DNA of 64,000 nt from a bacterium (GTDB lineage: Bacteria; ARS69), in the NCBI GenBank assembly GCA_025774805.1, contig JALGZR010000001.1, positions 1 through 64,000 on the forward strand, read 5' to 3'. Under the pieces are notes generated by a model, which was not told where the DNA came from, ran no database searches, and saw only the letters and a program-made list of their open reading frames with translations. A program made the translations under genes and the position numbers. Positions within the stretch are counted from its first letter, which is position 1; every line of letters starts with the position of its first letter. Below are positions 16,989 to 55,324 of this stretch, piece after piece.

Positions 16989-16995
16989 GACGCAC

Positions 16996-32731: not shown

Positions 32732-33988
32732 GTGAGAACGCGCACCGTGATTCCGGAGACCGTCGGGAGCATCCTTGGGACAGCACTTCTACTGGGGGGT
32801 GGCTTCGCGGAGTCCTCCGCCCAGCAGATCGTGACGACGGTCGGTCAGCTGTACTCGGCCATCGACAACGCGAACAGCGGGACGGGAGACTCGACCATTC
32901 TCGTCGCGGATGGAACGTACACCCTGGACTCCGGGGCTCTCATCATCCGCGCGGACGGAGTCACCGTCCGTGGAATGAGCGGCTCCCGCGACGCCGTGAT
33001 CATCGAGGGACAGGGGATGTACAACTCGGCGGTGACCCAGGCGTTCCAGATCGCCGCGGACGACGTGACCCTCGAGACTCTGACCATCCGCCTTGTCAGC
33101 ACCCATGCCGTGCAGGTCCACGGGGAGCCTCCCTTCGACGCGGACCGGGTCGTGCTCCGAGACCTGCGGATCCAGGACGCCGGTGAGCAGCTGGTGAAGG
33201 TGAGCTCCGACTACAGCGGGGGCTTCTCCGAGGACGGCTTGGTCGAGGGTTGCGAGCTCGAATACACGGCGGGAATCGGGCCGCAGTGGTACATCGGCGG
33301 AGTCGACGCCCTTTTTGCCCGGAATTGGACGGTGAGAGGAAACACCTTCCGGGGAATCCGCAGCCCCGAGTCGAGGGTGGCGGGACATGCGATCCAGTTC
33401 TGGACGAGTAGCGAATACACCCTCGCCGAGAGGAACATCATCATCAACTGCGATCGGGGGATCGGATACGGCCTGGGAGACCGCGGACACGTGGGCGGAG
33501 TCATCCGCAACAACATGATCTACCACGATGGAAGCCGCGGCGACGTCGGGATCGAGCTCGAGAACGCACCCGGCGCAAAGGTGTACCACAACACGATCTA
33601 CCAGGAGCACGGCTTCCCGGCCGCCATATCCTACCGATGGCCCGGAACGACGGACGTGCACATCTCGAACAACCTGATTCTCAAGAACGGCGGTCTCTCG
33701 GACGCCATCCATTCGAGGGATGGCGGCAGCGCACTCGTGGAGGTCAACTACATCGGCTCCCTCAGCGACTGGTTCGTTAACCCCGCAGAAGGTGATCTCC
33801 ACCTGGCCGGCCAGGGAATTCCCCAAGTGGTCAACCAAGGGATCGCGCTGCCCGAGGTGACGGACGACTTCGACGGCGAGCTGCGGCCGCTGGGAAGCGG
33901 GATCGAGCTCGGAGCGGACGAGATCGCAGCCGGGCCGTCTCCCGTTCTGAAAAGGTCGTGGGGGGCCCTCAAGGGGATCTACCGTTGA
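32732..33988 (+). CDS. Secreted right-handed beta-helix protein ending in SWGALKGIYR
   Basis: A 418-aa protein from a GTG at 32732 with GGAG upstream; the open frame upstream has no protein character. The signal peptide covers residues 1-31 (SILGTALLLGGGFAESSAQ). The mature protein begins QIVTTVGQLYSAIDNANSGTG, typical of pectate-lyase-like parallel beta-helices. Rungs such as VTVRGMSGSRDAVIIEGQ, HAIQFWTSSEYTLAERNIII and VIRNNMIYHDGS follow. There is no obvious lyase triad. After an acidic linker the protein ends KRSWGALKGIYR, almost the same tail as the unrelated protein at 54.7 kb. Confidence 0.85.
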   Translation: MRTRTVIPETVGSILGTALLLGGGFAESSAQQIVTTVGQLYSAIDNANSGTGDSTILVADGTYTLDSGALIIRADGVTVRGMSGSRDAVIIEGQGMYNSAVTQAFQIAADDVTLETLTIRLVSTHAVQVHGEPPFDADRVVLRDLRIQDAGEQLVKVSSDYSGGFSEDGLVEGCELEYTAGIGPQWYIGGVDALFARNWTVRGNTFRGIRSPESRVAGHAIQFWTSSEYTLAERNIIINCDRGIGYGLGDRGHVGGVIRNNMIYHDGSRGDVGIELENAPGAKVYHNTIYQEHGFPAAISYRWPGTTDVHISNNLILKNGGLSDAIHSRDGGSALVEVNYIGSLSDWFVNPAEGDLHLAGQGIPQVVNQGIALPEVTDDFDGELRPLGSGIELGADEIAAGPSPVLKRSWGALKGIYR

Positions 33989-34640
33989 GGTGTTCGTCGC
34001 GGCTCGAGATCGGATTCGTATGCGGGATGGCGGCAATTGCCTACCGGATCGGTCGATTCTGCATCAGTCCGCTTGACGTTTCCGACTTGGGTTTCCAAAA
34101 TCAACAAGTGAGCGGCCGGGATCCCTGAGTTGCTGTTGCTAACGGCATGGTCCCGCACGGTGACTCAGGGATCCTGTTCATGATCTGAAAACCTTGATGC
34201 CGGCACGGGGACTGGGTGCCTCCTGGGAGGAGCCGGCACGGAATCCTCGGTTCCGCTGACGCCCGACCGCTGTTCAATCACATCACAGGCTTGTGCGCAA
34301 ACGAAACAGCCCGCGCGAGAGGCGTCTCTGCGATCTCCCGCCGCGGGGGATCGGGAAGCACCTCGAATGGGAGAGATCGCCCCCGTTTACCGCAATGCCG
34401 GTTCGAGCGGCGCCGATTCTCGGTTTTCGGGCACCTCACAATTCGCACGCGAGCACTCACAGGCCCCGCGGGGCCGGGGTGCAACGGGTGCCAGGGAGGG
34501 CATGTTTTTTGCACTCGGATGCGGGGACTCGTAGCTCGGAGGCGGACGGGAACCTCCGCAGTCCACAACTCAACAGAGGATTCGCAGGATTGGCACGGCG
34601 AGGACGCGTCGAGCCGTGCGGATTCTCGGAGGTCGGTATC
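33989..34640. other. Intergenic region with palindromic element
   Basis: 652 bp without a supported gene. It contains a perfect 12-bp inverted repeat (listed separately) and a 10-bp direct repeat GCCGGCACGG at 34199-34208 and 34232-34241. The last 20 bases hold GGAGG, the ribosome-binding site of the next gene. Short frames in this stretch look like chance. Confidence 0.5.
34119..34174. repeat. Perfect 12-bp inverted repeat, possible mini-transposon or hairpin
   Basis: GGATCCCTGAGT at 34119-34130 is the exact reverse complement of ACTCAGGGATCC at 34163-34174, with a 32-nt spacer. It lies 130 bp after the beta-helix gene stop. There is no T-tract, so it is a weak terminator. The long exact arms suggest terminal repeats of a tiny element or an RNA hairpin. 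Confidence 0.5.
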
Positions 34641-37600
34641 GTGCATCTCTGTGCCTGGCGATATCGGAGAGCTCTCGGGCTCTCTCTCCTGATCGCCTCG
34701 ATGACAATGCTGGGACACGCGACGAGTGCGACAGCCCAGAGCGAGCTGCTGCAACCCCAGGACATGGAGTATCTTGGCGCGTTTCTGCTCCCTTCGGGGC
34801 GTGAATTCACCTATACCAAGGGGGTGAAGGCTTACAGACCGGACGGAGATCCCCAGGGACCGGACGACGGGTTTCCCGGGTCTTTGTTCGGGACCGGTCA
34901 CGTTCACCACCCGTTGGTCTGGGAGGTGAACATCCCGGTACCGGTGAACTCCCGAGACCCCGACGATTTGCACAGTGCCGAAATACTGCAGGAACCGGAA
35001 GACATCATCACCTGGGACATCGAGTTGAAGGGTCTCGAGTACCTTCCTCCCCAAGGTGCCCAAACGACCCCGAAGCTTCACTATGCCACCGGTACGCACT
35101 TTCAGTACGATCTCAACGCGTACCACGGCTGGTTCGAGACAAATCTCAGCTCCCCCCAGCGGGCAGGATCATGGTTCGTCGGTGACCCTAACGAGATCAA
35201 TCCCCTCAACACGAATGAGTACATCTTCACGATTCCGCAGGAATGGGCGGACCAGTACGTTCCGGGCAAGCGGCTTGCGTGTGGTCGGTTCCGGGGAGGT
35301 CAGTGGTCGAGCGGACCGACCATCATCGCCTTCGGACCCTGGAACCACGGCAACCCCCCGCCCGAGGACTACAACCTCGACGCCACCCCGCTCTTGCTGT
35401 ACGAGTACCTCGCGTGCCTCTGCGAGAGTTGCGAAGGCGGAGGCAACGGCGGTAATTGTCTCGAGGGCCACTGCGAGGACGACGAGTGGAGGGGAGGGGC
35501 TTGGATTCACGGGGAGAGGACGGCCGTTGCCATCGTCGGTGTAAAGGGATATGGCGACTGCTGGTACGGCTATGCCGACGGAACCATCTACAGTGAGTGC
35601 GCGCCGAACTGTCCTGAGCTCGGAAGTCGTGGCTATTGGTCCTCTTACTACAAGTCGGTGATACTTCTGTACAATCCCGATGACCTCGCTGCTGTGGCAC
35701 GGGGTGAGCTGAACGCCGATCTACCGCAGCCGTACGAAGTCGTCGATATAGGTCCCTACCTGTTCGGGTACGACGGAGAACTGGACCGAGGCAAGATCAA
35801 GGTGGCCGGCACGGCCTACGACAGCGAGCGCGGCTATCTCTACATCACCGAGATGTATGGATACGACCCCCGTCCGGTCGTTCACGTGTGGAGCGTCGGC
35901 GGATCCCCGTCCGAGCCGGACTCGATTCCGCCCGATCCGGTCACCGATCTCGGAGCAACTCCGGGAGCGACGGGAGAGGTCGAGTTGACATGGACGGCCC
36001 CCGGCGACGACGGCTCGTCGGGACGGGCGATCATGTACCTCGTCCGCCGCTCGGATTCGACCATTGACGACGAGGGCGCCTGGAGCGACGCCACTCCGGT
36101 GACGGGAGCACCGTCTCCTCAGACGGCCGGTTCCTCGGAGTCTATGACGGTCACGGGACTCCAGCCCGAGACCACCTACTACTTCTCGGTTCGAGCGCGA
36201 GACGACGCGTTGAACGTCGGGGACCTGTCCAACTCCCCGTCCGTGACGACGGCCGCCGATGAGGACCCACCGATCCTGATCAATGTCTCGGTCGAGGAGT
36301 CGGAACCCGGAACGCTCCGCTTCACCTGGTCGACGAACGAACCGGCCACCTCGGAGGTCCGGTGGGATGCTGATTACCCGGGCTCCGGACCGCTCGCCAA
36401 CACTCTGAGCGATCCGCTGCTCACGATCGAGCACGATCTGGAGCTCAGCGGTCTCTCCGCGGGGTCACGGATCCACTATCAGGTGAGCTCGACCGACGCC
36501 GCGGGCAACACGCTGACGGATGCGATCGACTACATCGACATCCAGAGCACCGACACGACGCCGCCCGGCATCATCGCCGGTCCCTCCGTCTCGGTCGACT
36601 CCTCGGCCACCATGGCGCTGATCTCGTGGCGAACGGACGAGCCGGCCGTCGGGTGGGTCGAGTGGGGTATGACACCGTCCTTCGGCCGGGGCACGGACGA
36701 GACCACCGAGTATTCCACCAGTCACAATCACCGGCTGGTCGGGATCTCCCACGGCCAGATCATCCACTTTCGCGTGCACGTCACGGACGGGTCCGGCAAC
36801 ACGACCGTCAGCGACGCCGACTCGTTTCTGGTCGAGACCGACTTCGATCCTCCCGTGGTCACGGATCCGGTCATCGTCAGCACCTCCTCGCAGACGCTGC
36901 TGACCTTCTACACGGACGAGCCGTCTTTCGGAACCCTCGATTGGGGGGTCGATCCGAACGATCTGTCGAATTCCATCCCGCTGGCCTCCGCCGATCAGCC
37001 GGCGATCATGCACCTGGCGCTGCTCGAGGGATTGTCCGCCTCAACGACCTACTACTGGCGGCTCTCACTGAGTGACCTGAGCGGAAACGTCACCGAGACC
37101 GAGGGGGACTTCCTGTTCTCCGACGGCACCCCGTTGGACTCGACGGCCCCGCTCGCGCCGGACGGGCTCTACATCGCGAACTTCGACGAGGAGTTCGGTG
37201 TCGCCCTCCAGTGGATGCCGAACTCGGAGAACGATCTCGCCGGCTACGAGGTGCACCGTCGCCCGATCGGTGAAGACGGGGAACCGACCGGGGCATGGTA
37301 TACGATCAACCACGGGTTGCTCACCGAAACGGCGTTTCTCGACGACGGCGTCGGAATCGGATTGAGCTACGAGTACGAAGTGGTCGCCCGGGACGTCAGC
37401 TCCAATGAGAGTCCACCGTCGGAGAGCGTGGAGTTCGATCCCGAATACTGGATGTCGTTGCAGAATCTTCTGGGCACCCCACACCCCAATCCCGTTCCCG
37501 GAGGAGATGTCACGAGGATCGACTTCCGGGCGCCCGCCGTGCTCGGAGCCGAGTCGGTCCGGGCCGAGATGATGGTCTACGACGTTACCGGCCGCAGCGT

Positions 37601-37763
37601 GAGGGGGCTCTTCCGGGGGCTCATGACGCCGGGCCAGATCCGGACGGCACACTGGAACGGCCGCGATCGTTTCGGCGAGCTGGTCGGGAACGGGATCTAC
37701 TTCGTGCGGTTGCAGATCGCGGATCGCCCCGCCGTGACCCGGAAGGTCACGGTTCTGCGGTAG
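34641..37763 (+). CDS. Large secreted multi-domain protein with Fn3-like repeats and FlgD-like tail
   Basis: A 1040-aa protein. The GTG at 34641 follows GGAGG by 8 nt and starts a signal peptide ending GHATSATAQ. Residues of about 35-420 form an unrecognised domain (LQPQDMEYLGAFLLPSGREF) with a Cys-rich insert near 255-283 (ACLCESCEGGGNGGNC). Next come an Fn3 domain (PPDPVTDLGATPGATGEVEL) and three related Ig/Fn3-like domains, each opening with a PP-x-I/V motif and containing a T/S-DEP or NEP-x-x-x-x-x-W core. A further Fn3 domain follows, and the FlgD-like tail (HPNPVPGGDVTRIDF, GNGIYFVRLQI, RKVTVLR) ends the protein. It is probably surface-displayed; substrate unknown. Confidence 0.83.
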   Translation: MHLCAWRYRRALGLSLLIASMTMLGHATSATAQSELLQPQDMEYLGAFLLPSGREFTYTKGVKAYRPDGDPQGPDDGFPGSLFGTGHVHHPLVWEVNIPVPVNSRDPDDLHSAEILQEPEDIITWDIELKGLEYLPPQGAQTTPKLHYATGTHFQYDLNAYHGWFETNLSSPQRAGSWFVGDPNEINPLNTNEYIFTIPQEWADQYVPGKRLACGRFRGGQWSSGPTIIAFGPWNHGNPPPEDYNLDATPLLLYEYLACLCESCEGGGNGGNCLEGHCEDDEWRGGAWIHGERTAVAIVGVKGYGDCWYGYADGTIYSECAPNCPELGSRGYWSSYYKSVILLYNPDDLAAVARGELNADLPQPYEVVDIGPYLFGYDGELDRGKIKVAGTAYDSERGYLYITEMYGYDPRPVVHVWSVGGSPSEPDSIPPDPVTDLGATPGATGEVELTWTAPGDDGSSGRAIMYLVRRSDSTIDDEGAWSDATPVTGAPSPQTAGSSESMTVTGLQPETTYYFSVRARDDALNVGDLSNSPSVTTAADEDPPILINVSVEESEPGTLRFTWSTNEPATSEVRWDADYPGSGPLANTLSDPLLTIEHDLELSGLSAGSRIHYQVSSTDAAGNTLTDAIDYIDIQSTDTTPPGIIAGPSVSVDSSATMALISWRTDEPAVGWVEWGMTPSFGRGTDETTEYSTSHNHRLVGISHGQIIHFRVHVTDGSGNTTVSDADSFLVETDFDPPVVTDPVIVSTSSQTLLTFYTDEPSFGTLDWGVDPNDLSNSIPLASADQPAIMHLALLEGLSASTTYYWRLSLSDLSGNVTETEGDFLFSDGTPLDSTAPLAPDGLYIANFDEEFGVALQWMPNSENDLAGYEVHRRPIGEDGEPTGAWYTINHGLLTETAFLDDGVGIGLSYEYEVVARDVSSNESPPSESVEFDPEYWMSLQNLLGTPHPNPVPGGDVTRIDFRAPAVLGAESVRAEMMVYDVTGRSVRGLFRGLMTPGQIRTAHWNGRDRFGELVGNGIYFVRLQIADRPAVTRKVTVLR

Positions 37764-38860
37764 ACCGGAACGGCACAATTCGAGCGGTCCGGAAGGAGGG
37801 ATTCCGACGATGGACATCCTCCCGGACCCCGATCGATGGCGCCTCGGCTTGGCCGGGGCGCCACCGTCATGATGCCCCGTACGAATCCATGGAGCTTGGA
37901 GGAGAAGGCGACGAAGGAACTATACGGGTGCTCTCCCGGGCCGAGCCGGGGCTCCTTCCTAGGGAGCCGGTGCCGGCCTTTCCGGCGATCGAGGCGGCCT
38001 TCGTAGGTCGGGCCTGCCGTCCCCGTTGGAGAATCGAGTCTCGCCCCCCCCCATTGCACACCCCGTCGCCGGGACACACTTCCTCCCGGTCGGCGGGGCC
38101 TTGTCCGGCGTGACTCGGAGTTGTGACCAATCGGCGAGAACCAATCCAATATCGTCACCATGGTCATTCCGTATCGTCGCAGGTCGGTGTTCGGGTCCGG
38201 CCGGGCACCACCGGAAGCACTGAGGCGCGCTGCCGTGGCGATCGTCGAGTGGGGCGAAACGTTACGATCATTCTCCGGAGTGCGTCCGGCACCGGTTCGA
38301 GCTTACCGGAACCGGGCGTCCCGAGAATCGGACGCAGCCGGAGGAGACCGAGGGTACCGCTCTGGAGGAGGAGGCGATCCCGGTCGGCATCGAAGAAGCC
38401 TCATCCCTGGCCCTGATCGAGCCACGGTGCTATGTTCCGGCGAATTGGGAGGGGAGCATTGGGCGCGATGAGGGCCGGCGGCCGGGCCTGGGGAGCGACT
38501 TCCGGCGGCATCGGACACTTCGGCCGGTGACGGGGCTGGGGGCGGGACAACGCCAGGACAGCCGTTTCCAGAGATACCCGCAACGGCAGGAGAGCCGCCT
38601 CCATCGCCGGTTTACCCGTGACCGAACCATCGGTACCTGCCGCCGCGAGCTATTCCCCGATCCGGACGACACCACGATCAACGACGACGTCGCCGTTCCT
38701 CCGGGAATTCTCTCCCGTGGCGCCCCCGTCACCTTCGAGTTCCTCGCTATCGCCAGCTCCCTCTGGCGGCCATTGTATATGACAGTCGCAGCGGTCCAGG
38801 ATGAGGTGGGCGATCTCATCATCGTCCGACACTTGCCCTGAACCTAGACCAGGAGGAACC
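37764..38860. other. 1.1-kb intergenic region, terminator-like hairpin at its start
   Basis: No supported gene. A strong stem lies at 37838-37862 (GGCGCCTCGG pairing with CCGGGGCGCC, one T-G wobble, loop CTTGG), 75 bp after the preceding stop. It may end that transcript, although no T-tract follows. Several frames of 60-160 codons exist on both strands, but they are Arg/Pro/Ser-rich, lack domains and lack good ribosome-binding sites. Old gene decay is possible but not shown. Confidence 0.45.
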
Positions 38861-39925
38861 GTGACTCAGCGCAAGACGTTCCTGGCGGACACCGCGCTCT
38901 TTGCGGGAACCCTGATCGTATGCCTCGTCGTTGCCGAGGTCGTGCTTCGGGCGGTCGGGATCTACGGCATACGGATCGGCAAGATCGATCACATAGAGCC
39001 CGTCGACGATCCTATTCTTGATTTCCGGCTAGTTCCCGGCTCCGAGTGGGTGTACAACGGAATCCCCTATCGCATCAACGCCCACGGCTGGCGCGACCAC
39101 GGCCACGAGTACGAGAAGCCAGACAGTACGGTACGGCTCGTCATCCTCGGTGACTCCGTCCTCAACGGTCACGGCGTGAAGATGGAGGAGGTCTGGGCGA
39201 AGCAGCTCGAATACCGACTGAATGAAGGCGGTGGCACCCCGCACTTCGAGGTCATCATGCTGGCCATCGGGGCGCTCAACACCAAACAGGAGGCCCATCT
39301 CTTGGAGGTCGAGGGGATGAAGTACGACCCGGATCTGATCCTGGTGGGCTACGTCCTTAACGACCCCGAACCGGGCATGAGCTCCCAGGGCGCACGCGAA
39401 CGCCGCGAGCACATGGGCGCTTTCCACAAGTTTAAGCAAATGCTCAAGTTGTCAAGCGTCGTTTTCCACTCCGTCCGATTGATCGACAGTCTGATCTGGC
39501 GATTGCAGGTGGCGATCGGCAGGAATGACAGCTCGCACTACATCGACCGCGACTACTTCGGCGTTCTCCATGAAAGCGATGAGCAGTGGGCCGACGTCGT
39601 CGCGGCATTCGGCAAGATCCGTGAGCTCGCCGATCCCGAATGCACTCCCGTTGGCCTGGTGATCTTCCCTGTGATCTTCCAGCTCGACAACTACCCCTGG
39701 GAGGACGTGCACTCTCAGGTGCGCGAGGCCGCGGCCGCCGTAGGATTCCGGGTCCTGGACCTGCTAGAGACGTACCGGGCTTACCCGGAAGCTGATACGC
39801 GCATCGGACGCGGAGACCATGTGCACCCAAACGCTCTCGGGCACCGGATCGCCGGCGACGCGGTCGCGAAGTGGCTCGTGGCCGAGAACCTCTTGCCCGC
39901 GGACTCCCTTCGGCTCGCCCGGTGA
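38861..39925 (+). CDS. Membrane-anchored SGNH/GDSL hydrolase
   Basis: A 354-aa protein. The GTG at 38861 has AGGAGG 4-5 nt upstream. There is an N-terminal membrane anchor (residues 10-30). The catalytic core starts with VRLVILGDSVLNGHGV, where Ser99 is the nucleophile. The Gly/Asn blocks are represented by LAIGALNTKQEA and VGYVLNDPEP. The C-terminal RGDHVHPNALGH carries the Asp-x-x-His pair. Such anchored SGNH proteins in glycan loci often act as esterases or acyltransferases on polysaccharides; the exact reaction is unknown. It stands alone between two gene-free regions. Confidence 0.87.
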   Translation: MTQRKTFLADTALFAGTLIVCLVVAEVVLRAVGIYGIRIGKIDHIEPVDDPILDFRLVPGSEWVYNGIPYRINAHGWRDHGHEYEKPDSTVRLVILGDSVLNGHGVKMEEVWAKQLEYRLNEGGGTPHFEVIMLAIGALNTKQEAHLLEVEGMKYDPDLILVGYVLNDPEPGMSSQGARERREHMGAFHKFKQMLKLSSVVFHSVRLIDSLIWRLQVAIGRNDSSHYIDRDYFGVLHESDEQWADVVAAFGKIRELADPECTPVGLVIFPVIFQLDNYPWEDVHSQVREAAAAVGFRVLDLLETYRAYPEADTRIGRGDHVHPNALGHRIAGDAVAKWLVAENLLPADSLRLAR

Positions 39926-40543
39926 CCCTGTAGTAATCCGCAGATTCTCGAATCCCTCGAGGGTCGCCTTTCCCCTGTGACACGTCCGGCGCAAGGAGGC
40001 CGAGCGATGGGTGATTCTCTCCCGCGGCTGAGCGCCTCGATTCGGCGCCATCAGTCGGGTCGAAGTCATCAGACGGTTCGTTGCCGAGAAGCCCGCAAGT
40101 GTCCAGATGTCTTCTCAGTGACAGGGCGAAATCCTGAACGTCGGGCCCACGGAGAGAGCTCTCGACCACGTGGGGAAACCTCTGCAACGATCGGAGGTGC
40201 CCGGACAACGTCATTGAGGTGGTCCGCCCCCCCCTTGCCGAACTCCTCAAAGTTCTCTCGGGTTACCTCGTCCGTGTGACGTTTCTGGTGCGATTCTGAT
40301 TCTCCAGAGACGCGCGAGGTCTCGGCTCCGGTCCGGCGGTCGACCGGAAGCCGTTGGGTGTTCGCCAGGAAGGCACCGGGCCTTTTGGCGTGCAGAGATG
40401 GCTCCTCGTTCACGAGTCTTCACGACCTTGCACGCCGGTCGGAACGTCGAACCATCCGCTCGCTTTGACACTTGAGCTCGAGGAACAGGCGTGGTACCGA
40501 TATGAGATGTAGCAATGTCCCATATCAACCGAAAGGTTGTGCC
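39926..40543. other. Intergenic region, no supported gene
   Basis: 618 bp. It has a good -35-like TTGACA at 40465-40470 but no matching -10 hexamer at the usual distance. Minus-strand frames exist (such as 40069-40413) but have no recognisable domain. AAAGG lies before the ATG of the next gene. Confidence 0.4.
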
Positions 40544-45633: not shown

Positions 45634-45669
45634 ACTTCCTCCTGCCGCCCCGGACCCGCGAGGAGCCGA

Positions 45670-46884
45670 TTGAACATCCTCTTCCTCTCCCCGAGGATCC
45701 CCGAGCCTCCGAACAAAGGCGACAAGATCCGCTCGCACCATTTCATGCGGCGAATCGCCTCGCGTCACGAGGTCCACTTGGCGTGTCTCCTCGACGACGA
45801 GTCGGAGATCGTGCACGTCGAGGCGGCCGAGAGGTGGGCGGCCTCCGTGACCTGGCGACTCCGGAGTGCGGGCGAGAGCGCCCTACGCGGTGCCGTCTGC
45901 GCGTTGACGGGGAGACCCCTTTCCGCCGGGTGGTTCCGCAGCGGCGGGTTGAGGGGCGCCATCCGGCGGCTCCGCCGCGAGCGGCGGTTCGACGTGGCGG
46001 TCGCCTACTGCTCTTCCATGGCTCCCTATCTTCACGACTGGAGGAGCCCCCGGGTCGTCGATCTCGTCGACGTCGATTCGGAGAAGTGGCGGCAGTACGC
46101 CGACCGAAGCCGGGGCCCGAAGCGAGTCGTCTATGCACTCGAGCACCGCCTTCTCCGCGGATACGAGGCCCGGGTGGTGCGCGAGTTCGATCGCATCGTG
46201 ATCATCTCCCTCGGTGAGCGCGAGATCCTGGGGCGGTTCGCCGACGCGTCGAGAGTCGACGTGGTGACGAACGGCGTGGACGTGGATGCGTTCGCGCGAC
46301 CCGGTCCGCGCGGCCGGGAGCCGGTGCTCGTCTTCGTGGGAGCGCTCGACTACTTCGCAAACGCCGAGGGGATCGCGCACTTCGTCCGAGAGGCCTGGCC
46401 GGACGTCCGGGAGCGCGTCCCGGGGACGCGCCTGCGGATCGTGGGGCGCAGGCCGGGATCCGACGTGCGATCCCTGGGGAGCGTCGCCGGCGTCGACGTC
46501 GTCGGCGAGGTCGACGACGTCCGACCCGAGCTCTGGCGCGCGTCCCTCGCCGTCGTGCCCCTGCGAATCGCGCAGGGGCTCCAGAACAAGGTGCTCGAGG
46601 CGATGGCGGCCGGCTTGCCCGTCCTGACCTCTCCCGCCGCCGTGCGCGGCGTGGAGGGCGAGGCTCCGGTCCACTTCCGCGTCGCGGAGACCCCGAAGGA
46701 GTGGGCGGACGGGGCGGAGCTCCTGCTCCGGAATCGGGAGGCGGCGGAAGCCACCGCCGGCCGCGCTCTCGAGCTCGTCCGATCCCGGTACTCGTGGGAC
46801 CGAAAGGCCGGGGAGTACGAGCGGATCCTCGCCGAGGCGGCGGGGATGCCCGTCCCCCCTGTCCGGGCGGGGGCAACCGACTGA
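45670..46884 (+). CDS. Sugar transferase, exosortase A-associated Stp1 type (GT4)
   Basis: A 404-aa protein with a TTG start preceded by GGAG. The N-terminus (LFLSPRIPEPPNKGDKIRSHH, HEVHLACLLDDESEIVHVEA and LTGRPLSAGWFRS) is characteristic of the PEP-CTERM/EpsH1-associated sugar transferase family. The C-domain shows VLVFVGALDYFANAEGI and the donor-binding VPLRIAQGLQNKVLEAMAAG. It acts on the cytoplasmic side, in glycan assembly. It is separated from the main glycan run but belongs functionally with it. Confidence 0.91.
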   Translation: MNILFLSPRIPEPPNKGDKIRSHHFMRRIASRHEVHLACLLDDESEIVHVEAAERWAASVTWRLRSAGESALRGAVCALTGRPLSAGWFRSGGLRGAIRRLRRERRFDVAVAYCSSMAPYLHDWRSPRVVDLVDVDSEKWRQYADRSRGPKRVVYALEHRLLRGYEARVVREFDRIVIISLGEREILGRFADASRVDVVTNGVDVDAFARPGPRGREPVLVFVGALDYFANAEGIAHFVREAWPDVRERVPGTRLRIVGRRPGSDVRSLGSVAGVDVVGEVDDVRPELWRASLAVVPLRIAQGLQNKVLEAMAAGLPVLTSPAAVRGVEGEAPVHFRVAETPKEWADGAELLLRNREAAEATAGRALELVRSRYSWDRKAGEYERILAEAAGMPVPPVRAGATD

Positions 46885-47338
46885 ACGCGCTCGTTCACTC
46901 CGGCGCCGAACAGAGCGCGACCTCCGGCGGGCCATCTCTCCAAGTCACCTTGGAATAAGCGATTGCCTAACCAGGTCGCGGCTGGCACGGACCGTGCGGA
47001 CGGACTCGGTCGGACGGCCCGGACCCTCGGGGTTCCTTCCAGCTGCCGGCCTCGTTTCCGGGGGTTTCGGGCCGAAGTCATCGGCCGGCGATGACCCCTT
47101 CTCCGGGCGGCGCCGTCTTCGAAACGGCGGGGCGGCGCACCCCCGGCTTTGCCCGGGGCCGCCAAATCTCCCTCAAGTCGGCCAATCCTGCTCACGATAA
47201 CCGAGAGAAGGCCTCGGAGCCCGGACCAGGTCGGTGCGTCGGAGGTCCGTCGGAGCGGGTGGCGGGAGGTGCCGGGAAGGGAGCCCGCGTCGCCGCGCCG
47301 GTGGAGTCGGCTTCGTACGGGCCGGGGAGGAGAGCGTC
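46885..47338. other. Intergenic region with palindromes, no gene
   Basis: 454 bp. GCACGG-A-CCGTGC (46986-46998) is a perfect 13-nt palindrome, and CCCCGGCTTTGCCCGGGG lies near 47150-47160, able to form a short stem. The final 15 bases hold GGAGG before the GTG of the sulfotransferase gene. No protein-like frame was found. Confidence 0.4.
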
Positions 47339-48115
47339 GTGCAGATCCGTTTGAGGCGGCGTCCGGTGTTCGTGATCGGGACGGGCCGCTGCGGGACGAC
47401 GCTTCTCACCGATCTGATCCAGGGTCCGCGAATCGACTGCCTCAAGGAGCGGGCGGTCCGCAGCCGGTTTCCGGCGTTCGGGAACCAGCACATCTTCAAT
47501 CTTCTCTACCGCGGCGACCTGCCCGAGGGGACCTTCCTCCAGTACTTCCGCTCGGTCCGCGAGAAGCTTCTCGAGAGGCACCCCCCGGAGAACGTCTACT
47601 GCGAGAAGATCCCGCACGGTCAGTGGGCGGTCGAGTCGATCCGCCGCGTCTTCCCCGAGGCCCGGTTCATCGAGATCTACCGGGATGGCCGGGACACGGT
47701 CCAGTCGATGCTTCACGTGAGCTGGTACGCGCCGGACGACACGCGGCCCCGCTGGATCCCTCGGGGGGACCTGGCGGAGTGGAAGCGGTCGTCGCAGTTC
47801 GAGAAGTGCTGTACGCGACTCCATCGCACGATCCCGTTCACCATCCTCAACCGTCTCTCTTACGACTCCGACGTCTACCTCTCTTTCGCGTACGAGGAGC
47901 TCATGGCGGAGACCGAGACCGTGATCCAACGGATCGAGGAGTTCGCCGGCACGGATCTCTACCGGGATCGCGTCCAGATTCGCCCGTCCCTCGGAAACTG
48001 GCGGCGCTGGAGTATCGAGCAGACGGAGACGTACGACCGGATCCTGGGGGAGGACGGCTGGAGGGCCCAGCGCTTCCTCGGCTACGAGAGAGAGGCGGCC
48101 GTCCGCGTCTTCTGA
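47339..48115 (+). CDS. Sulfotransferase-family protein
   Basis: A 258-aa protein. The GTG at 47339 is preceded by GGAGG. The PAPS loop is VFVIGTGRCGTTLLTDLIQG at the N-terminus. The second cofactor element is ARFIEIYRDGRDTVQSMLH, and the C-terminal half has LSFAYEELMAETETVIQRIEEF. It is the third sulfotransferase of the window. Only 11 bp separate it from the GT2 gene, so the two are likely co-expressed and may act on one acceptor. Confidence 0.9.
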   Translation: MQIRLRRRPVFVIGTGRCGTTLLTDLIQGPRIDCLKERAVRSRFPAFGNQHIFNLLYRGDLPEGTFLQYFRSVREKLLERHPPENVYCEKIPHGQWAVESIRRVFPEARFIEIYRDGRDTVQSMLHVSWYAPDDTRPRWIPRGDLAEWKRSSQFEKCCTRLHRTIPFTILNRLSYDSDVYLSFAYEELMAETETVIQRIEEFAGTDLYRDRVQIRPSLGNWRRWSIEQTETYDRILGEDGWRAQRFLGYEREAAVRVF

Positions 48116-48126
48116 GGAAATCGAGA

Positions 48127-48909
48127 GTGGTCGACATCTTCCTGCTCGTGAAGGACCGGTGGGAGTTCACGGAGATCGTCCTGTCCTTCCTCCACGAGTT
48201 CACCGACTTCTCCCGCGTGCACCGTCTGGTCTTCGTGAACGACGGCTCCACCGACGGTGTGGACGACGTCTGTCATACGTGGATCCGCCGGACGGGGATC
48301 GGAGAGGTCGTGAGCATACGGGGCGGGTCGGTCACGAACGCTCTCTACCTCGGCACTCATCCCTACCGGAACGATCCGGTGCGCTGGGTTGTCAAGCTGG
48401 ACAACGATCTCGTCCTCTGCGAGGACTGGCTCACGAAGGTGCTCGTGCCGGCCGAGGCCTCCCGCGATCGGTACGACGTGTTCGGGTTCACGACGGTGAA
48501 CGAGTTCTTCCCCTCGACCCCGGAAGAGATCTGGGCCGATCGGCCGGCCTCGGACTACGGCCTGCAGACGGTGCCCTACACCGGGGGAAACTTCCTGATG
48601 CGGTGGGACGCCTTTCTCCGCACCCGTCACCTCGGCGTGACCCGGGATCCCCGGAACTACATCACCGGGTCGATCAGCGAGCTCCATCGCGCCCTGTCCG
48701 CACGGGGCGTCCTCCGGATTGCGACCGTTCGCCCGCACCTCCCGGTGTTCAAGCTCGACAAGGTCGCCGTCTCCGCCTTCGACCGGTACGGGTTCTTCGA
48801 GCGGCGCGGTCTCGACCGCTCTCGGATCGAGTCCCTCGTGGAGAGGTACCACCGCGAAGGCGTGTGCCGGAAGCGGATCGTCGAGGACCGCGTCGTGAAC
48901 CGCTTCTGA
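48127..48909 (+). CDS. GT2-like glycosyltransferase
   Basis: A 260-aa protein with a GTG start and GAGG 8 nt upstream. VDIFLLVKDRWEFTEIVLSFL opens the GT-A fold, VFVNDGSTDG binds the nucleotide, and VVKLDNDLVLCEDW carries the DxD-like LDND motif. The end (VEDRVVNRF) lies next to a truncated minus-strand gene. It is shorter than many GT2 enzymes, without a clear C-terminal domain. Confidence 0.83.
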   Translation: MVDIFLLVKDRWEFTEIVLSFLHEFTDFSRVHRLVFVNDGSTDGVDDVCHTWIRRTGIGEVVSIRGGSVTNALYLGTHPYRNDPVRWVVKLDNDLVLCEDWLTKVLVPAEASRDRYDVFGFTTVNEFFPSTPEEIWADRPASDYGLQTVPYTGGNFLMRWDAFLRTRHLGVTRDPRNYITGSISELHRALSARGVLRIATVRPHLPVFKLDKVAVSAFDRYGFFERRGLDRSRIESLVERYHREGVCRKRIVEDRVVNRF

Positions 48910-49086
48910 GAGGCCGGCCCGCGCGAAGATCGTGAACGCCGTCTCCTCGGAGAGGCCCCGATCGCGATGGACCCGGTACAGATCCTCGAGGTCCGCGGCG
49001 AGCTCCAGGAGGATCCTCGACTTCGCGGGCCGGGGAAGATCGAGACGATCACGAGTCTGCCGCAGGACGTCGGCGAATCGGGTCAC
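48910..49086 (-). pseudogene. N-terminal remnant of a permease/HTH-type prefix-domain gene
   Basis: Read on the minus strand from the ATG at 49086 it gives MTRFADVLRQTRDRLDLPRP, then AKSRILLELAADLEDLYR and GLSEETAFTIFARAGLSE. This resembles the N-terminal helical prefix of larger bacterial membrane or regulatory proteins (R-I-L-E-x-x-x-D-L-E-D-L-Y-x-x-x-x-x-x-G-x-S-x-x-x-A pattern). Protein character stops where the frame enters the antisense of the GT2 gene at about 48910. The gene seems cut off by a rearrangement. Confidence 0.5.
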
Positions 49087-49231
49087 GACGCCAAGGGGCG
49101 CGACCCGGAGGGGGGACCGGCGGGGGGCCTCCGGGCCGGCCGCCGCGGGAGCCCCGACTTCCGCAATCCTTGACGTGAGCGGTAGGTTTCCGGACTCTGG
49201 CCGGAGTCATTCCCAGGAGGTGGCGGCGCCC

Positions 49232-51133
49232 ATGACGGAATCCCCCGACCGGCCGAATCCGGGCCAGGTCGATCAACTGGAGCAGGAAGAGCGGAACTGG
49301 CTCGAGGGTGTCTACCGGGGCGACCGGCTGCCCGAGCTCTCCCTACGGGTCGTCCTGGTCGGCCTGGTGCTGAGCGTTCTCACCATCGTGTTCAACGTCT
49401 ACATGGGGTTGAAGACCGGCTGGGGCGAAGGCGGCGCGATCATCAGCGTGATCCTGGGCTTCACGATCATGAAGCTGTTCGGTCAGGTCGACCGGAAGGA
49501 TCGGCCCTTCAGCGAGCTCGAGAACAACATCAGCCAGACCATGGCTTCCGCGTCGGGATCCCTGGGCAACATCGTGAACGTGATTCCGGCGATGTTTCTC
49601 CTCGCGTCGGCGGGCATCATCGCACGGGCTCCGACGACCCTCGACATCATTCTCTGGTGCTTCTTCACGTCGCTGCTCGGCGTCGTCTTCGCCATTCCCC
49701 TCCGCAAGCAGATCGTCGTCGTGGAGAAGCTCGTATTCCCCACCGGGACGGCGGCCGCGAAGACGATCCAGGCGGTGCACGCTCACGGAGAGGAGGCTCT
49801 CAGCAAGGCGAAAACGCTGTTCCGCGTCGCGGTGCCGTCGTTCCTGATCACTTGGTTCCGAGACGGATGGATCGGTCCGCTCCCGCACCTCCCGGCCTCC
49901 TGGTATCCGTTCACCGGCATGATTCCGGGGGTCGGAGCGGCGCAGACGTACATGGCGGGGCTGTCCATCTCCCCGTTCATGTTGACCGGGGGCTTCCTGT
50001 TCGGCCCGCGCGTGGGGACGAGCCTCCTGATCGGGGGAGTGATCGCCTGGCTCGTCGCGGCCCCCCGCCTCATGGCGAACGGCGTGCTGGAGACCATCGC
50101 GAACGACTTCGGCGAGCGCTACATCAACTTCCTGGAGACGGGGTACATCTTCCCGATCCTCGTGAAGTGGACGATGTGGCCCGCCATCGGGGTGATGGTC
50201 TCCGCCGGCATCACGATGACCGCCATCCGGTGGCCGGTGATCAAGCGGGCGTTCGCCTCGATGATCGCGGGGACGAAGACCGGCGGGAAGGGGGCGATCT
50301 CCCACCTCGAGCTCTCCTTCAAGTGGCTGGGGCTCGTGTTCCTCTTCGCGATGGCCGGCATCCTGTACATGCTCACGGTCCGGTTCGGGGTCCCGTGGTG
50401 GATCGGAATCCTGACTCCGATCATGGCCTTCGCGCTCTCGCTCATCGCCGTGCGCGCCACCGGCGAGACCGACATCAACCCTGTGGGCACCATGGGCTCC
50501 ATCACGCAGATCGCCTTCGGTCTCGCGCAGCAGGGAGCGACCACGAACCTCATGGCGGGAGGGATCTCCGCGTCCGTCGCATCCGAGTCGGCCGACATGA
50601 TGCAGGACCTCAAGACCGGTTGGCTCCTCGGCTCGACGCCCCGTAAACTGGTGATCGGTCAGCTTCTCGGCGTGACCGCCGGGGCCGTGTTCGCCGCGGT
50701 CGTGTTCAACATCATGATCGCCGCCCACGACATCGGATCGGCGACGCTTCCCGCCCCCGCGGCGATCACCTGGGAGGGGCTTGCCCGAATGATGGAGAAG
50801 GGGGCGGGTGCCCTGCCTCCCGGCGCCGGCCCGGCGCTGCTCATCGGCATTCTGGTGGGGACGGTGCTGACCTACCTCGACGGGAAGAAGCTCGTGCCGA
50901 AGAAGTACCTGCCGAGCGCGATCTCGGTCGGACTCGCCATGATCGTTCCCTTCGACTTCGTCGTCGCGATGTTCCTGGGAGGCATCGCGATGCTCATCAC
51001 GACGCGCCGGAATCCTGCCTGGGCGGCCGAGCACGCGGCTCTCATCGGTTCGGGGGGAATCGTGGGTGAGGGGCTGGCGGGGGTTCTCGCCGCGATCACG
51101 ATTCTGGCGACCGGCGGGGGTGCGGGTCACTAG
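49232..51133 (+). CDS. OPT-family oligopeptide transporter
   Basis: A 633-aa protein starting at the ATG 8-10 nt after AGGAGG. About 14-16 transmembrane helices. Family features include PELSLRVVLVGLVLSVLTIVFNVYMGLKTGWGEGGAIIS (split over helix 1-2), PFSELENNISQTMASASGS, KLVFPTGTAAAKTIQAVH and GATTNLMAGGISASVASESADMMQDLKTG. It is a proton-coupled importer of peptides or metal chelates in the inner membrane. It ends at the dispersed repeat copy D and converges on the barrel protein gene. Confidence 0.94.
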   Translation: MTESPDRPNPGQVDQLEQEERNWLEGVYRGDRLPELSLRVVLVGLVLSVLTIVFNVYMGLKTGWGEGGAIISVILGFTIMKLFGQVDRKDRPFSELENNISQTMASASGSLGNIVNVIPAMFLLASAGIIARAPTTLDIILWCFFTSLLGVVFAIPLRKQIVVVEKLVFPTGTAAAKTIQAVHAHGEEALSKAKTLFRVAVPSFLITWFRDGWIGPLPHLPASWYPFTGMIPGVGAAQTYMAGLSISPFMLTGGFLFGPRVGTSLLIGGVIAWLVAAPRLMANGVLETIANDFGERYINFLETGYIFPILVKWTMWPAIGVMVSAGITMTAIRWPVIKRAFASMIAGTKTGGKGAISHLELSFKWLGLVFLFAMAGILYMLTVRFGVPWWIGILTPIMAFALSLIAVRATGETDINPVGTMGSITQIAFGLAQQGATTNLMAGGISASVASESADMMQDLKTGWLLGSTPRKLVIGQLLGVTAGAVFAAVVFNIMIAAHDIGSATLPAPAAITWEGLARMMEKGAGALPPGAGPALLIGILVGTVLTYLDGKKLVPKKYLPSAISVGLAMIVPFDFVVAMFLGGIAMLITTRRNPAWAAEHAALIGSGGIVGEGLAGVLAAITILATGGGAGH

Positions 51134-51164
51134 CCCGCATATCTCACCAGGCTCGTCGCGAGGC
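51132..51164. repeat. Dispersed intergenic repeat, copy D
   Basis: AGCCCGCATATCTCACCAGG followed by CTCGTCGCGAGGC matches the left end of the element at 45454 with one mismatch over 33 bp. It begins inside the stop codon of the OPT gene and lies between convergent genes. Confidence 0.7.
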
Positions 51165-51211
51165 CCCGGGCCCCCGGTGGCGGGTCTCGGGGCCGATCTC
51201 CGATCGACCCG

Positions 51212-52465
51212 CTACCAGTCCCCCTCCTCTTCCTCTTCCGGGCTGCGCCGCCGGGTCCACTTCTCGACCCCGGTGAGGGTCAGCCCGAAGCGGACGAACT
51301 GCTCGTAATACTCGGTGTCATCCTTCGTGCCGCGCCAGCCGTACTCGAAAAACGCGTCGATCGTCCCCCGCCCGCCCGCGAAGCCGAAGCCCGATCCGGC
51401 GGTCAGCACGTGCTCCCGAACCTCCCGGCTCTCGTTGTCGAGCACGTGAAGGAGCTCGGTCCGCCATCCGCCTCGAATCGGCAGAGAAGGACCGCGTCCC
51501 CGGGCGGAGAGAACCCACTCGAAGCCCGCCGCAAACCGGTTCACGTCGACCAGCTCGTCGATCGGGCTGAGCCCGTCCGTCCCTTCCCAGGCCTCGTGCA
51601 CCCAATCGGCGGTCAGGAGCACGTCCTCGAGGGGACGGATCTCCAATCCGAGGCCGTATCGCTCCGCCACCTCGCCCTCGCGATCGAGCTTGACCTCTTC
51701 CGACCCGCCGAGGACGTCGACGTTCTCCAGTCGGCGGCTTCCACTCAGCTCCGAGGGCAGAGAGATCCACGCCCCCGCGGCGACGCGCGATCCGAGCGAC
51801 TTCCGCACCCCGGCGCGGAAGGCGACGCCCCAGAGGCTGAGCCTGTCGAAGTCGCGGCTGTCGCCGAAGCCGGATTCCGCGGGAAAGTCGTTCTCCCAGA
51901 GCACCTCTTGGTTGAGCAGCAGTACATCGAGTCCCGTCCCGAACTGCGTCCCCCATCGCTCGTGGGCGAAGAGGACCGGGATGCGGAGCACGTTCCCGGT
52001 CGCCTCGAAGACCTGACGGTAGCTCTGTCCGTCCACCGTCGTGGTGTCCCTCGCGATCGTGCCCCCCTTGCGTCTTCCGACCAGGAGGCCGGTACCGAGA
52101 CGCAACCCCCTCGGCAGCGGGTAGACGAGGGAGAGATTCGGGATGAGGTTGTCGTACTCCTTGCGGACCTTCTGGCCCCCGGCGCCGAGGGGCTCCTGGG
52201 TCCGGATCCATTCGGTCTCGTAGCTGCCGGTGAATCGGGTCTCCAGGGCGAAGGCCAGACTGGCCGGGTTGCCGGCCAGGCTCGGCGTCGAGCCCGCCGC
52301 CTCCGCTCCTCCCCGGCCCCGCACGGATGCCTCCGACGAGAGGACCGGCTCTCCGAAGCCGCGCACCGAATAGCCGGAATCGGCATCGACGATCGAGGCG
52401 AAGGCGATCGTGAGGACGAGCCCGGCGACGCCAGCCCCCCCGGTTCGGCTCACGCAGGGGCTCAC
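51212..52465 (-). CDS. Predicted outer-membrane beta-barrel protein
   Basis: A 417-aa protein from a GTG in a GTGA overlap with the preceding lipoprotein gene. It has a signal peptide (GVAGLVLTIAFASIVDA). Amphipathic strand patterns follow through the protein (GRGGAEAAGSTPSLAGNPASL, GLRLGTGLLVGRRKGG, RYGLGLEIRPLEDVLLTADW, FVRFGLTLTGVEKW). The NPA motif after the signal is like PorV/FadL-type barrels of FCB-group bacteria. The C-terminus is unusually acidic (PEEEEEGDW). It is coupled to the lipoprotein gene, so the two may form one outer-membrane complex. Confidence 0.78.
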   Translation of the reverse strand: MSPCVSRTGGAGVAGLVLTIAFASIVDADSGYSVRGFGEPVLSSEASVRGRGGAEAAGSTPSLAGNPASLAFALETRFTGSYETEWIRTQEPLGAGGQKVRKEYDNLIPNLSLVYPLPRGLRLGTGLLVGRRKGGTIARDTTTVDGQSYRQVFEATGNVLRIPVLFAHERWGTQFGTGLDVLLLNQEVLWENDFPAESGFGDSRDFDRLSLWGVAFRAGVRKSLGSRVAAGAWISLPSELSGSRRLENVDVLGGSEEVKLDREGEVAERYGLGLEIRPLEDVLLTADWVHEAWEGTDGLSPIDELVDVNRFAAGFEWVLSARGRGPSLPIRGGWRTELLHVLDNESREVREHVLTAGSGFGFAGGRGTIDAFFEYGWRGTKDDTEYYEQFVRFGLTLTGVEKWTRRRSPEEEEEGDW

Positions 52466-53703
52466 GGTTCGTCCCCCTGATCCCCGGGCGTATACCAGAT
52501 GTGGAGCACCGGTCGCCTCGCGGAATCGTCGGAGTCGTGGGCGTGGAAGCGGATGTAATCGGTATCTGGCCGCTCATCGAGGGCGCGGACCTGGAATCCG
52601 TGGTTCTCTTCCCCTTCGACGAAGAGCTCCGCGAGGAGACCGAAAACGTCGATCGAGACGCTGTCGACCTCGGTCACCGCATCGTTCACGCCGTAGAGAG
52701 AGTTGTCGACATCGGTGCCGTCGCCGGCCCACGGCTCGGCCAGCACTCGCTGCGCTCCCACCCCGACTCGGCGAAAGCTGGAGAGAGCCGGATCGATGTA
52801 GAGGATGAGCGCGGCGCGGTTCACCGTGCTCCGAATCCACAGCTCGGGCAACGAGTCCCGATCGGGAATCCCGAAGCGGAGGAGGGCGCGGCCCGGAACT
52901 CCGCGGGCCACCGTGACTCTCTTCGATTGACCGGAGAGGGTCACGAAGTCGGGGGTCGTCTCGAGCAAGAACGTGTCGTCGTCCGATGCGAGAGAGATCG
53001 ACGTGTCCACGCCACCGTCCGACCAGTGGACGTCCAGGACGGGGGGATCGGTGGTCTGTCGGGATCCGAGTTCGATCTGGGAGGCGGTTCCGGCGAGAGG
53101 GGACAGCAGGAATCCGAAGTTCGAGTCGGGAGCATCGACCCAGAAGCGCGCGAGATCGGTGACGGGGATCGCCACCGTATCTCCCCCCGCCGCGAGCGCG
53201 AACGTGACCGTATCGACCGGTTCGGGAAGAAATGCCGGCAGCGTGCTGTCGGCCAGCGAGAAGTTCTCTGTCCAGGGGGCGGTGATCCGGTGAAGGGCCA
53301 CCGGAAGAGGGTCGGTGTCCCCGATTCCGTCCAGGTATTCGAAGCGAACGAAGGCGCTGTCGACCACGGTCCCGGAGTCGGGAAACGCCTCGGAGCCGAA
53401 GCGCACGAGAGCACGCGACCGGTAACCGGAACGCATTCCGACGAGGACCACGCTGGAGAACCCGGGGGAGACCGCGGGACGAGAGAGCTGATAGTCGACC
53501 GAGGTGTCCGGCGGGCTCACGGCTAGGAAGCGGACCGCTTTGAGCTCTCCCTGATTCTCGATGAACCCGACCCCGAGCGTGTTGTCCTCTTTCGTCGCAC
53601 ACGCGGCGAACGGCAGCCAGAGCGCCAACGTAAGTGGTAGAAGAGCCGAACGAAACGGTGACCGACCGTATCGGTCTCCCGTCACTCGAATCGGAAGCGG
53701 CAC
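52462..53703 (-). CDS. Lipoprotein with paired beta-rich (DNRLRE-like) domains
   Basis: A 413-aa protein. The GTG at 53703 is the furthest good start; a downstream GTG is possible. The signal peptide ends LWLPFAACATKED, with a lipobox before Cys35. Two halves each look like a beta-jelly domain (ALVRFGSEAFPDSGTVVDSAFVRFEY in one; RALLRFGIPDRDSLPELWIRSTVNRAALIL in the other). This is the pattern of DNRLRE-type domains found in surface proteins. The stop overlaps the start of the barrel gene as GTGA. Confidence 0.75.
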   Translation of the reverse strand: MPLPIRVTGDRYGRSPFRSALLPLTLALWLPFAACATKEDNTLGVGFIENQGELKAVRFLAVSPPDTSVDYQLSRPAVSPGFSSVVLVGMRSGYRSRALVRFGSEAFPDSGTVVDSAFVRFEYLDGIGDTDPLPVALHRITAPWTENFSLADSTLPAFLPEPVDTVTFALAAGGDTVAIPVTDLARFWVDAPDSNFGFLLSPLAGTASQIELGSRQTTDPPVLDVHWSDGGVDTSISLASDDDTFLLETTPDFVTLSGQSKRVTVARGVPGRALLRFGIPDRDSLPELWIRSTVNRAALILYIDPALSSFRRVGVGAQRVLAEPWAGDGTDVDNSLYGVNDAVTEVDSVSIDVFGLLAELFVEGEENHGFQVRALDERPDTDYIRFHAHDSDDSARRPVLHIWYTPGDQGDEP

Positions 53704-54275
53704 GACGGCGGATTTCCTTCTCGGAGGGTCTTACGAGGCCGGGAGTCTAGCAGCCCTCAGCTCAACACGCCAGCGGGCGAAGTCGCCGAGTTGACGTTTG
53801 CCGAAACCGTTCGGAAAGTGGGTCACACGAGGATGACGGAAGGAGAAATCGGGTCGTGCCCCCCAAGTGAGACACCCGGCCGACCCCGCTTCCAGCTCGA
53901 TCCCTTCCGCTCTTCGTAACTCCGGGACTTGCATCGCGCTCAGAGCAGACATCGGTAGGGCCGGGGTATCACGTGGGACCCCGGAGACGCGATGGTTCCG
54001 GCAGGAGGCCGCGCCGAGTCCTTCGACCCCCAGCCCCTGGCCCCGGTTCTGGGACGGCCCGGGAGAGCCAGGACGGGGCTAGATTCGACTCCGGCGCGGT
54101 CCTCTTCCGGGAGGGGCGACCGGATACCGCAGTGTACCCCAACTGCTTCCGGCTTCGAACCCTTCCCGCTTGAGGGGGGACGTGAGATCCGTGATCCCAC
54201 TCCCCCCGATTCCCCCTCCTTGACACACCCCAGCGCCGCTCGTACTGTCTTTGCCGCGTCTTCGGACGTCCGCGC
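53704..54275. other. Intergenic region upstream of tRNA-Met, no supported gene
   Basis: 572 bp. A minus-strand frame at 53731-53952 (73 codons) has a moderately protein-like composition but no ribosome-binding site or known domain. The stretch before 54276 should contain the tRNA promoter; CTTGACA lies at about 54221, 55 bp before the tRNA. Confidence 0.4.
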
Positions 54276-54352
54276 GGCGGTGTAGCTCAGCTGGTTAGAG
54301 CAGCGGAATCATAATCCGCGTGTCCGGGGTTCGAGTCCCTGCACCGCTACCA
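54276..54352 (+). tRNA. tRNA-Met (CAT)
   Basis: A full 77-nt cloverleaf. The acceptor GGCGGTG pairs with CACCGCT (G1-U72 wobble). The D-arm is GCTC...GAGC. The anticodon stem GCGGA/TCCGC has the loop ATCATAA, giving anticodon CAT. The T-arm is CGGGG-TTCGAGT-CCCTG, and CCA is encoded. The first pair is not the C-A mismatch of initiator tRNA, so this is elongator tRNA-Met. A tRNA-Ile2 modified by TilS cannot be excluded by anticodon alone. Confidence 0.96.
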
Positions 54353-54357
54353 TTTTG

Positions 54358-54386
54358 GGGCCTGGAAGTCGTTGATTTCCGGGCCC
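54358..54386 (+). terminator. Hairpin after tRNA-Met, possible terminator
   Basis: GGGCCTGGAA pairs with TTCCGGGCCC (one T-G wobble) around a 9-nt loop. It starts 6 nt after the CCA end and is preceded by TTTT rather than followed by a T-tract. It may end the tRNA transcript. Confidence 0.45.
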
Positions 54387-54410
54387 TTGCCCGTTCGGGC
54401 CTGACCGCGG

Positions 54411-54512
54411 TCAGCCCGTCTCCAATATCTCTCCAAAAACTTGGGCGGAATCGGGCGGGTCCAGGAGGCGGATCGCCTCCTCGATCACCCTCGGGCTGAG
54501 GTGCATGTACCC
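54411..54512 (-). pseudogene. Tyrosine recombinase (integrase) C-terminal remnant
   Basis: On the minus strand, a frame ending at the TGA at 54411 reads YMHLSPRVIEEAIRLLD followed by PPDSAQVFGEILETG. YMHLSP with the following helix is the catalytic-tyrosine C-terminal motif of phage-type integrases (usual form Y-x-HLS/TP). The rest of the enzyme is missing, replaced upstream by an IS3 fragment in another frame. Position 59 bp after tRNA-Met fits an integration site. Confidence 0.6.
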
Positions 54513-54568
54513 TCGGCCTCCTTCAGGATCCGGACGATGTGCTCCTCAGTGAATCGGGATCGCTTCAT
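54485..54568 (-). pseudogene. IS3-family OrfA (transposase HTH subunit) N-terminal remnant
   Basis: ATG at 54568 with GGAGG 6 nt upstream starts MKRSRFTEEHIVRILKEAEG, the highly characteristic N-terminus of IS3-family OrfA. After this the frame stops within 7 codons, while another frame continues as the integrase tail. So the transposase gene is broken and fused to the integrase scar. Confidence 0.7.
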
Positions 54569-54742
54569 CTTGAGCCTCCTGGTTGCAGAATTCCTCCAGA
54601 AAGCTCTACTTCCAGGCGATCTACGTAGAGGGCGACCTCACGCCACCGGTCCATCCGAGGTCGAAAGGCCATCGGAGCCGTTCAGGGAATCTGCGGACTC
54701 CGAGTCCCATCCTCAGGGCCGTGAAGAGCCACAGCTCTCACG

Positions 54743-55324
54743 TCAGCGATAGATGCTCTTGATCCTACCCCAGCTACCGTCCTCCACCGCAACCGGCTGC
54801 TTAAGGCAACCGTCGAACTTCTTATTGCAGGGTGGATTGTCATCGTTCGAGTATCCGATCCACTGAATCGGCCATATCTCCGGAACCGGCTCCTGGCAGT
54901 CCACTGCTTGCTTCCACCCGTTCATGGATGACGGAGCGAAACAGTACTGCCCCGGTACAGTACTAAAGACATGGATATCCATGACGTTAATGGGAGCATA
55001 CGCACACTCACCCACTTGGAGTAAGAGAGTGGTCCCGCTGCCGTGGTTGACGAAACCGCTCTTTTCAACGAACTCGAGAATCACATTGTTTGGATTCATC
55101 GAAACGATATCGAACTCGGCCCCCAGCGTTCCATCGTTTTCGTCACAGGCGTACCAGAGCTTCAGAATCAGCAGACCGAAACTGAAGGAACCCCAGTTCA
55201 TATACGGATCTGTGTTACTCGCACTAATCGTCCAACCGTAGACGGGATGCTCCGCAGACGCGCTCGGCGCCATGGTTGCGACAAACAGGGACAGAGCGGC
55301 TAGAACCGTCACAAAGCGCTTCAT
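54743..55324 (-). CDS. Small secreted protein ending in SWGRIKSIYR
   Basis: A 193-aa protein. ATG at 55324; the signal peptide KRFVTVLAALSLFVATMAPSASA is cleaved near residue 24. The mature part begins EHPVYGWTISASNTDPY, has Cys residues in several places (WYACDEND, VGECAYAP, QYCFAPSS, VDCQEP, NPPCNKKFDGC) that could form disulfides, and matches no family I know. It ends VEDGSWGRIKSIYR, the same tail type as the beta-helix protein at 32.7 kb. Base composition is visibly less GC-rich than in the core genes. Confidence 0.8.
   Translation of the reverse strand: MKRFVTVLAALSLFVATMAPSASAEHPVYGWTISASNTDPYMNWGSFSFGLLILKLWYACDENDGTLGAEFDIVSMNPNNVILEFVEKSGFVNHGSGTTLLLQVGECAYAPINVMDIHVFSTVPGQYCFAPSSMNGWKQAVDCQEPVPEIWPIQWIGYSNDDNPPCNKKFDGCLKQPVAVEDGSWGRIKSIYR

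Follow-up and report, generated by a model that had tools for sequence, protein, structure and literature searches.

The window, by which we mean the whole stretch of DNA analysed (64,000 nucleotides), encodes two exported proteins with a common C-terminal tail and three proteins with FlgD-like tails (Table 1). The right-handed beta-helix protein reads SPVLKRSWGALKGIYR at its C-terminal end and the cohesin-like protein reads VAVEDGSWGRIKSIYR, each followed by the stop codon. The first-pass annotation had described a short tail shared by two otherwise unrelated secreted proteins, and we confirmed it: seven of the last ten residues are identical, both tails end exactly at the stop codon (TGA in each), and the alignment between the two proteins is confined to the tail (21.9 bits). 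Full-length homology was rejected, since only the tails align and the mature domains cluster apart.

The cohesin-like gene lies on the minus strand, a detail absent from the first-pass annotation, and an alternative in-frame ATG upstream, at 55378, is also possible as its start. Its product had no Pfam or NCBIfam match, and the predicted structure is a cohesin-like beta-sandwich. The protein is a member of an expanded paralogue family of its own genome, also without a Pfam match, with nine other places at E <= 1e-12 plus weaker matches (loci L001-L008, L025, L042, L043, L071, and L081). Immediately upstream of it lies a gene for a streptopain-like Peptidase C10 with FG-GAP repeats.

Table 1. 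Tagged proteins of the window, their tags, and proteins with FlgD-like or T9SS-type tails.
Feature	Position	Strand	Details
Exported right-handed beta-helix protein, tagged	32732..33988	+	418 aa, GTG start; Pfam PF13229
Tag SWGALKGIYR of beta-helix protein	33956..33985	+	TGA stop 33986-33988; wider tail SPVLKRSWGALKGIYR
Exported cohesin-like protein (predicted fold), tagged	54743..55324	-	193 aa from ATG 55324
Tag SWGRIKSIYR of cohesin-like protein	54746..54775	-	TGA stop 54743-54745; wider tail PVAVEDGSWGRIKSIYR
Exported protein, FlgD-like/T9SS-type tail	34293..37763	+	TIGR04183 17.1 bits, below cut-off 23; neighbour of beta-helix gene
Peptidase C10 / FG-GAP protein, T9SS type A sorting domain	55881..59867	-	TIGR04183 30.0 bits, cut-off 23
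Protein with T9SS type A sorting domain	15546..17168	-	TIGR04183 31.6 bits, cut-off 23

At the genome level, the tail was not limited to these two proteins. We searched with a codon-degenerate pattern, W-[GA]-x-[ILVMF]-K-x-x-[YF]-R-stop, and used the same pattern reversed as a control. The own genome (5.1 Mb assembly) gave 35 pattern matches against none for the reversed control; thus, the tag occurs beyond chance. All five genomes examined in the own phylum contained the pattern, with 18, 46, 24, and 22 matches in the other four. In the phylum of G006, labelled Eisenbacteria, it was present in 44 of 47 genomes (about 680 matches vs. two controls), and in the phylum of G022, labelled Krumholzibacteriota, in 57 of 58 genomes, with three controls. 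A strict pattern was also run over all species genomes. Among the matches listed, titles were mostly Candidatus Eisenbacteria, together with Krumholzibacteriota, Effluviviaceae, and some labelled Latescibacterota, Gemmatimonadota, or 'bacterium'. Twenty-eight genomes, picked because each had a strict match, held from 1 to 71 pattern matches each, about 810 in total, and no controls. The taxonomic range spans at least three phylum-level groups, those covered by the pattern counts.

The tail itself was defined from 214 tagged open reading frames (ORFs) of the fetched loci, with one representative per cluster. The consensus was [VT]-[PA]-V-E-x-x-[ST]-W-G-x-I-K-[ASG]-L-Y-R, and the full tail has about 17 residues: [S/A/P]-[PA]-V-E-x-x-[ST]-W-G-x-[IV]-K-x-[LI]-Y-R-COOH. 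The named loci had been selected by a search on the W, G, I, K, L, Y, and R positions. Positions -16 to -10 (VPVExx[ST]) lie outside the search pattern and were still conserved, at about 1-2.5 bits each. At the DNA level, the 27-mer coding stretch had 200 distinct versions among the 214 ORFs; Gly, Arg, and Tyr were encoded by varying synonymous codons, and conservation did not reach past the stop codon. Because synonymous codons vary and nothing is conserved 3' of the stop, selection acts on the peptide. The same two observations rule out a DNA repeat or copied cassette.

The proteins that carry the tail are diverse. Their mature domains formed 62 clusters without detectable mutual similarity, 43 of them singletons. 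By a simple rule, a signal peptide was present in 146 of 186 tagged ORFs, compared with 116 of 624 conserved untagged ORFs and 250 of 3210 untagged ORFs overall. The prediction that many signal-peptide proteins with varied N-domains would end in this motif therefore held, in this genome as a whole and in related phyla. Lipoproteins occur among the tagged proteins (L055, L061, L131, L150), and the tail is therefore not needed merely for anchoring. Within the last 17 residues, no 9-residue window was hydrophobic in any of 204 tails, and six of them had a transmembrane-like window in the last 45 residues. The tail is amphipathic, with a helical moment of 1.56 vs. 0.94 when shuffled. The AlphaFold model of the cohesin-like family places it as a short, low-confidence helix past a flexible linker, outside the folded domain.

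Extracellular domains of tagged proteins included NHL, beta-helix, PKD, PPC, plastocyanin, cohesin, CBM20, LTD, and beta-propeller, as well as the choice-of-anchor domains C, J, and V of NCBIfam. Relatives of ScyF, a PEP-CTERM protein, were also among the tagged proteins. Choice-of-anchor domains, as named by NCBI, occur with differing C-terminal sorting signals. We also found natural swaps between the tag and T9SS-type tails. At L072, the same domain occurs in two adjacent genes (35% identity over 179 residues); the product of one is tagged and that of the other ends in a FlgD-like/T9SS-type domain, with FlgD_ig above cut-off and TIGR04183 at 19.8 bits, just under the cut-off of 23. L064 and L079 form a second such pair. 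Together, the choice-of-anchor domains and these swaps indicate that the tag occupies the slot of a sorting signal.

The tag had also been described as distinct from the FlgD-like tails of three other proteins in the window, and this distinction was borne out. Those tails match T9SS type A, two of the three passing the cut-off and the third falling under it, and no examined tagged protein has both endings: a FlgD-type domain ahead of the tag was found in none of 196 tagged proteins. Neither T9SS nor FlgD_ig domains appeared among the 25 commonest NCBIfam and Pfam families of 80 tagged proteins, and no Pfam or NCBIfam model was seen to span the tail among the tagged proteins searched. Literature searches on the motif, or on the group with sorting or T9SS, returned nothing about the tail.

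One genome, G040, carries a variant of the tail. It had no exact pattern matches, yet 41 profile matches. In the 12 distinct tails read (loci L187-L197), the core [V/A]Exx[TS]WGx[IL]K was kept in all, and the usual terminal YR was gone, with variable ends such as SNVGE, ATHN, QIYN, and RLF in place of the usual last residues. Such a concerted change over many proteins, read from the tails themselves, suggests one co-evolving reader per genome. Within the G006 phylum, one clade (G061-G069 and G015) is tag-poor, with zero to six tagged proteins per genome, and those remaining are mostly LTD and choice-of-anchor V proteins. Its gene neighbourhoods, at comparable breadth, gave only tagged families and overlapping ORFs as recurrent elements. 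The altered tails of G040 and this clade are natural material for a reader search by phylogenetic profiling.

As for candidate machinery, the own genome encodes SprA, the T9SS translocon, in a 2097-aa frame. SprA_N was found in 101 of 114 genomes, and a full-length model found SprA or pieces of it in several others. The PorV/PorQ family is expanded, each of the 50 genomes tested carrying 6-18 copies. The tag-poor clade G061-G069 has both SprA and PorV as well, so neither tracks the tag. The number of PorV copies correlated with tag number (rho 0.53, shared ancestry ignored). The near-universal presence of both permits a T9SS role without proving it.

The tail resembles the T9SS domains (type A TIGR04183/FlgD-like, type B TIGR04131, and type C) in several respects. 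Both are C-terminal and modular, lie on Sec-exported surface or secreted proteins, occur several times per genome, and exchange on the same domains in the swaps, and tagged genomes hold the SprA and PorV markers. However, T9SS domains are Ig-like and 70-100 residues long, whereas the tag has about 17 residues, was matched by no T9SS model, and shows helical rather than strand periodicity. The tails of PEP-CTERM/exosortase, MYXO-CTERM/myxosortase, GlyGly-CTERM/rhombosortase, and LPXTG/sortase systems are, like the tag, short C-terminal signals with many substrates in each genome, and they too are used with choice-of-anchor domains and ScyF-like proteins. Unlike these tails, the tag includes neither a transmembrane helix nor a basic cluster on the cytoplasmic side, and exosortase presence does not track it. 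Dockerins and the cargo peptides of encapsulins and microcompartments are likewise short C-terminal segments common to unrelated proteins; here, however, the carriers are Sec-exported and no dockerin match was found. The tripartite CTERM tails have an architecture unlike that of the tag (PMC11980579), and this difference, together with that from T9SS domains, sets the tag apart.

We consider it very likely that the tail is a sorting or targeting tag read in trans. The first-pass annotation had proposed a role in sorting, anchoring, or processing for this conserved C-terminus, and its recurrence on many unrelated exported proteins supports that proposal. A C-terminal sorting signal with T9SS as its leading candidate carrier is probably the best full explanation; that a single reader sorts the proteins to the surface is our inference, and T9SS as the carrier, taken by itself, is speculative and we advance it tentatively. 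Judging from sequence features, tagged proteins would leave the cytoplasm through Sec by means of their N-terminal signal peptides. A dedicated reader, one per genome, would then recognise the amphipathic tail, either within the periplasm or at the outer membrane, and direct its protein across that membrane or to the cell surface. The likeliest carrier may be the genomes' own T9SS, with the tail as a short alternative that works alongside the Ig-like type A domain, and one of the many PorV-type proteins could act as shuttle. Known T9SS signals comprise types A, B, and C, and type B has dedicated shuttles (PMC12618676; PMC10202324). A short T9SS signal is plausible because the last 22 residues of HBP35, a type A signal, suffice for secretion of GFP (PMC10202324). 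The tail would probably represent an undescribed class of bacterial C-terminal sorting signal: a 17-residue amphipathic, non-membrane tail served by one co-evolving machine per genome. Many genomes, from at least three related phylum-level groups, would each have tens of surface or secreted proteins that end in it. It would serve T9SS as a minimal alternative signal or else belong to an outer-membrane export system not yet known.

Other explanations deserve consideration. The tail could be a docking peptide, in which proteins secreted by any route bind through their amphipathic tails to a common surface scaffold or receptor, in the manner of dockerins or cargo peptides. Its amphipathic helical character, its flexible position outside the fold, and the very wide range of display-type domains agree with this, and the concerted change in one lineage fits one receptor equally well. 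However, the choice-of-anchor domains and the natural T9SS-type swaps indicate a sorting slot, and the cohesin-like family is itself tagged, so it is not an obvious receptor; we regard docking as rather unlikely. Less probable still is that a membrane transpeptidase or protease of the exosortase, sortase, or rhombosortase kind cuts the tail and anchors the protein. The many-to-one pattern, the choice-of-anchor domains, and the presence of exosortase in 29 of 42 genomes (mostly one per genome) speak for it, but the tagged proteins in those genomes are not PEP-CTERM proteins, and such signals are defined by a transmembrane segment and a basic cluster, neither of which the tail has. Moreover, no exosortase was found in eight tag-rich genomes (G002, G004, G020, G025, G026, G031, G039, and G007), and one is present in four tag-poor ones (G062, G063, G068, and G069). 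Exosortase as the reader is thus not supported, since its presence does not follow the tag. The expected co-occurrence with one conserved membrane enzyme has so far found no support either, exosortase being the one tested.

If a PDZ-type protease read the tail as a signal for degradation or quality control in the periplasm, this would account for the extreme C-terminal position and for the defined carboxylate end in most genomes. Such a role is highly improbable, given that the tail is kept on dozens of unrelated extracellular-type proteins and is exchanged with a T9SS-type domain, and that the G040 ends differ in length and residue after WGxIK, unlike the ligands of carboxylate-reading PDZ domains. 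Least probable of all is a tail without function, left by recent segment duplication or arising by chance similarity. Some tagged families are indeed tandem paralogues (e.g., L120, L084), but 62 unrelated clusters, near-zero controls, synonymous variation, no downstream conservation, and a spread over at least three phylum-level groups stand against it.

Under the sorting-signal reading, whole candidate phyla without well-studied members appear to mark much of their surface proteome with a single short tail. This tail is absent from the family libraries and the literature searched, and giving it a name would annotate very many hypothetical proteins at once. If 17 residues suffice for the surface delivery of a Sec-exported protein, this bears on how cargo is recognised by T9SS or by a new system, and would offer a short tag for protein display.

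At the level of gene order, no conserved neighbour of tagged genes other than tagged families was found in 115 named loci, and linkage between PorV and tagged genes was not significant overall (six cases vs. 8.3 expected). A PorV-type gene in G027 (L228) has no tagged neighbours; similar to it is one PorV subtype that, in G010, G017, and G021 (L225, L233, L245), lies next to one or two tagged genes in divergent orientation, and the tagged neighbours in L233 and L245 are lipoproteins. Finally, an SprA-like gene lies at a conserved place beside ORFs resembling the translation genes rimP, nusA, and infB. This neighbourhood was compared in G000:C50 (L215) and six other genomes (L216-L221), tag-rich and tag-poor alike, and from the resemblance of its ORFs it looks like a set of housekeeping genes.
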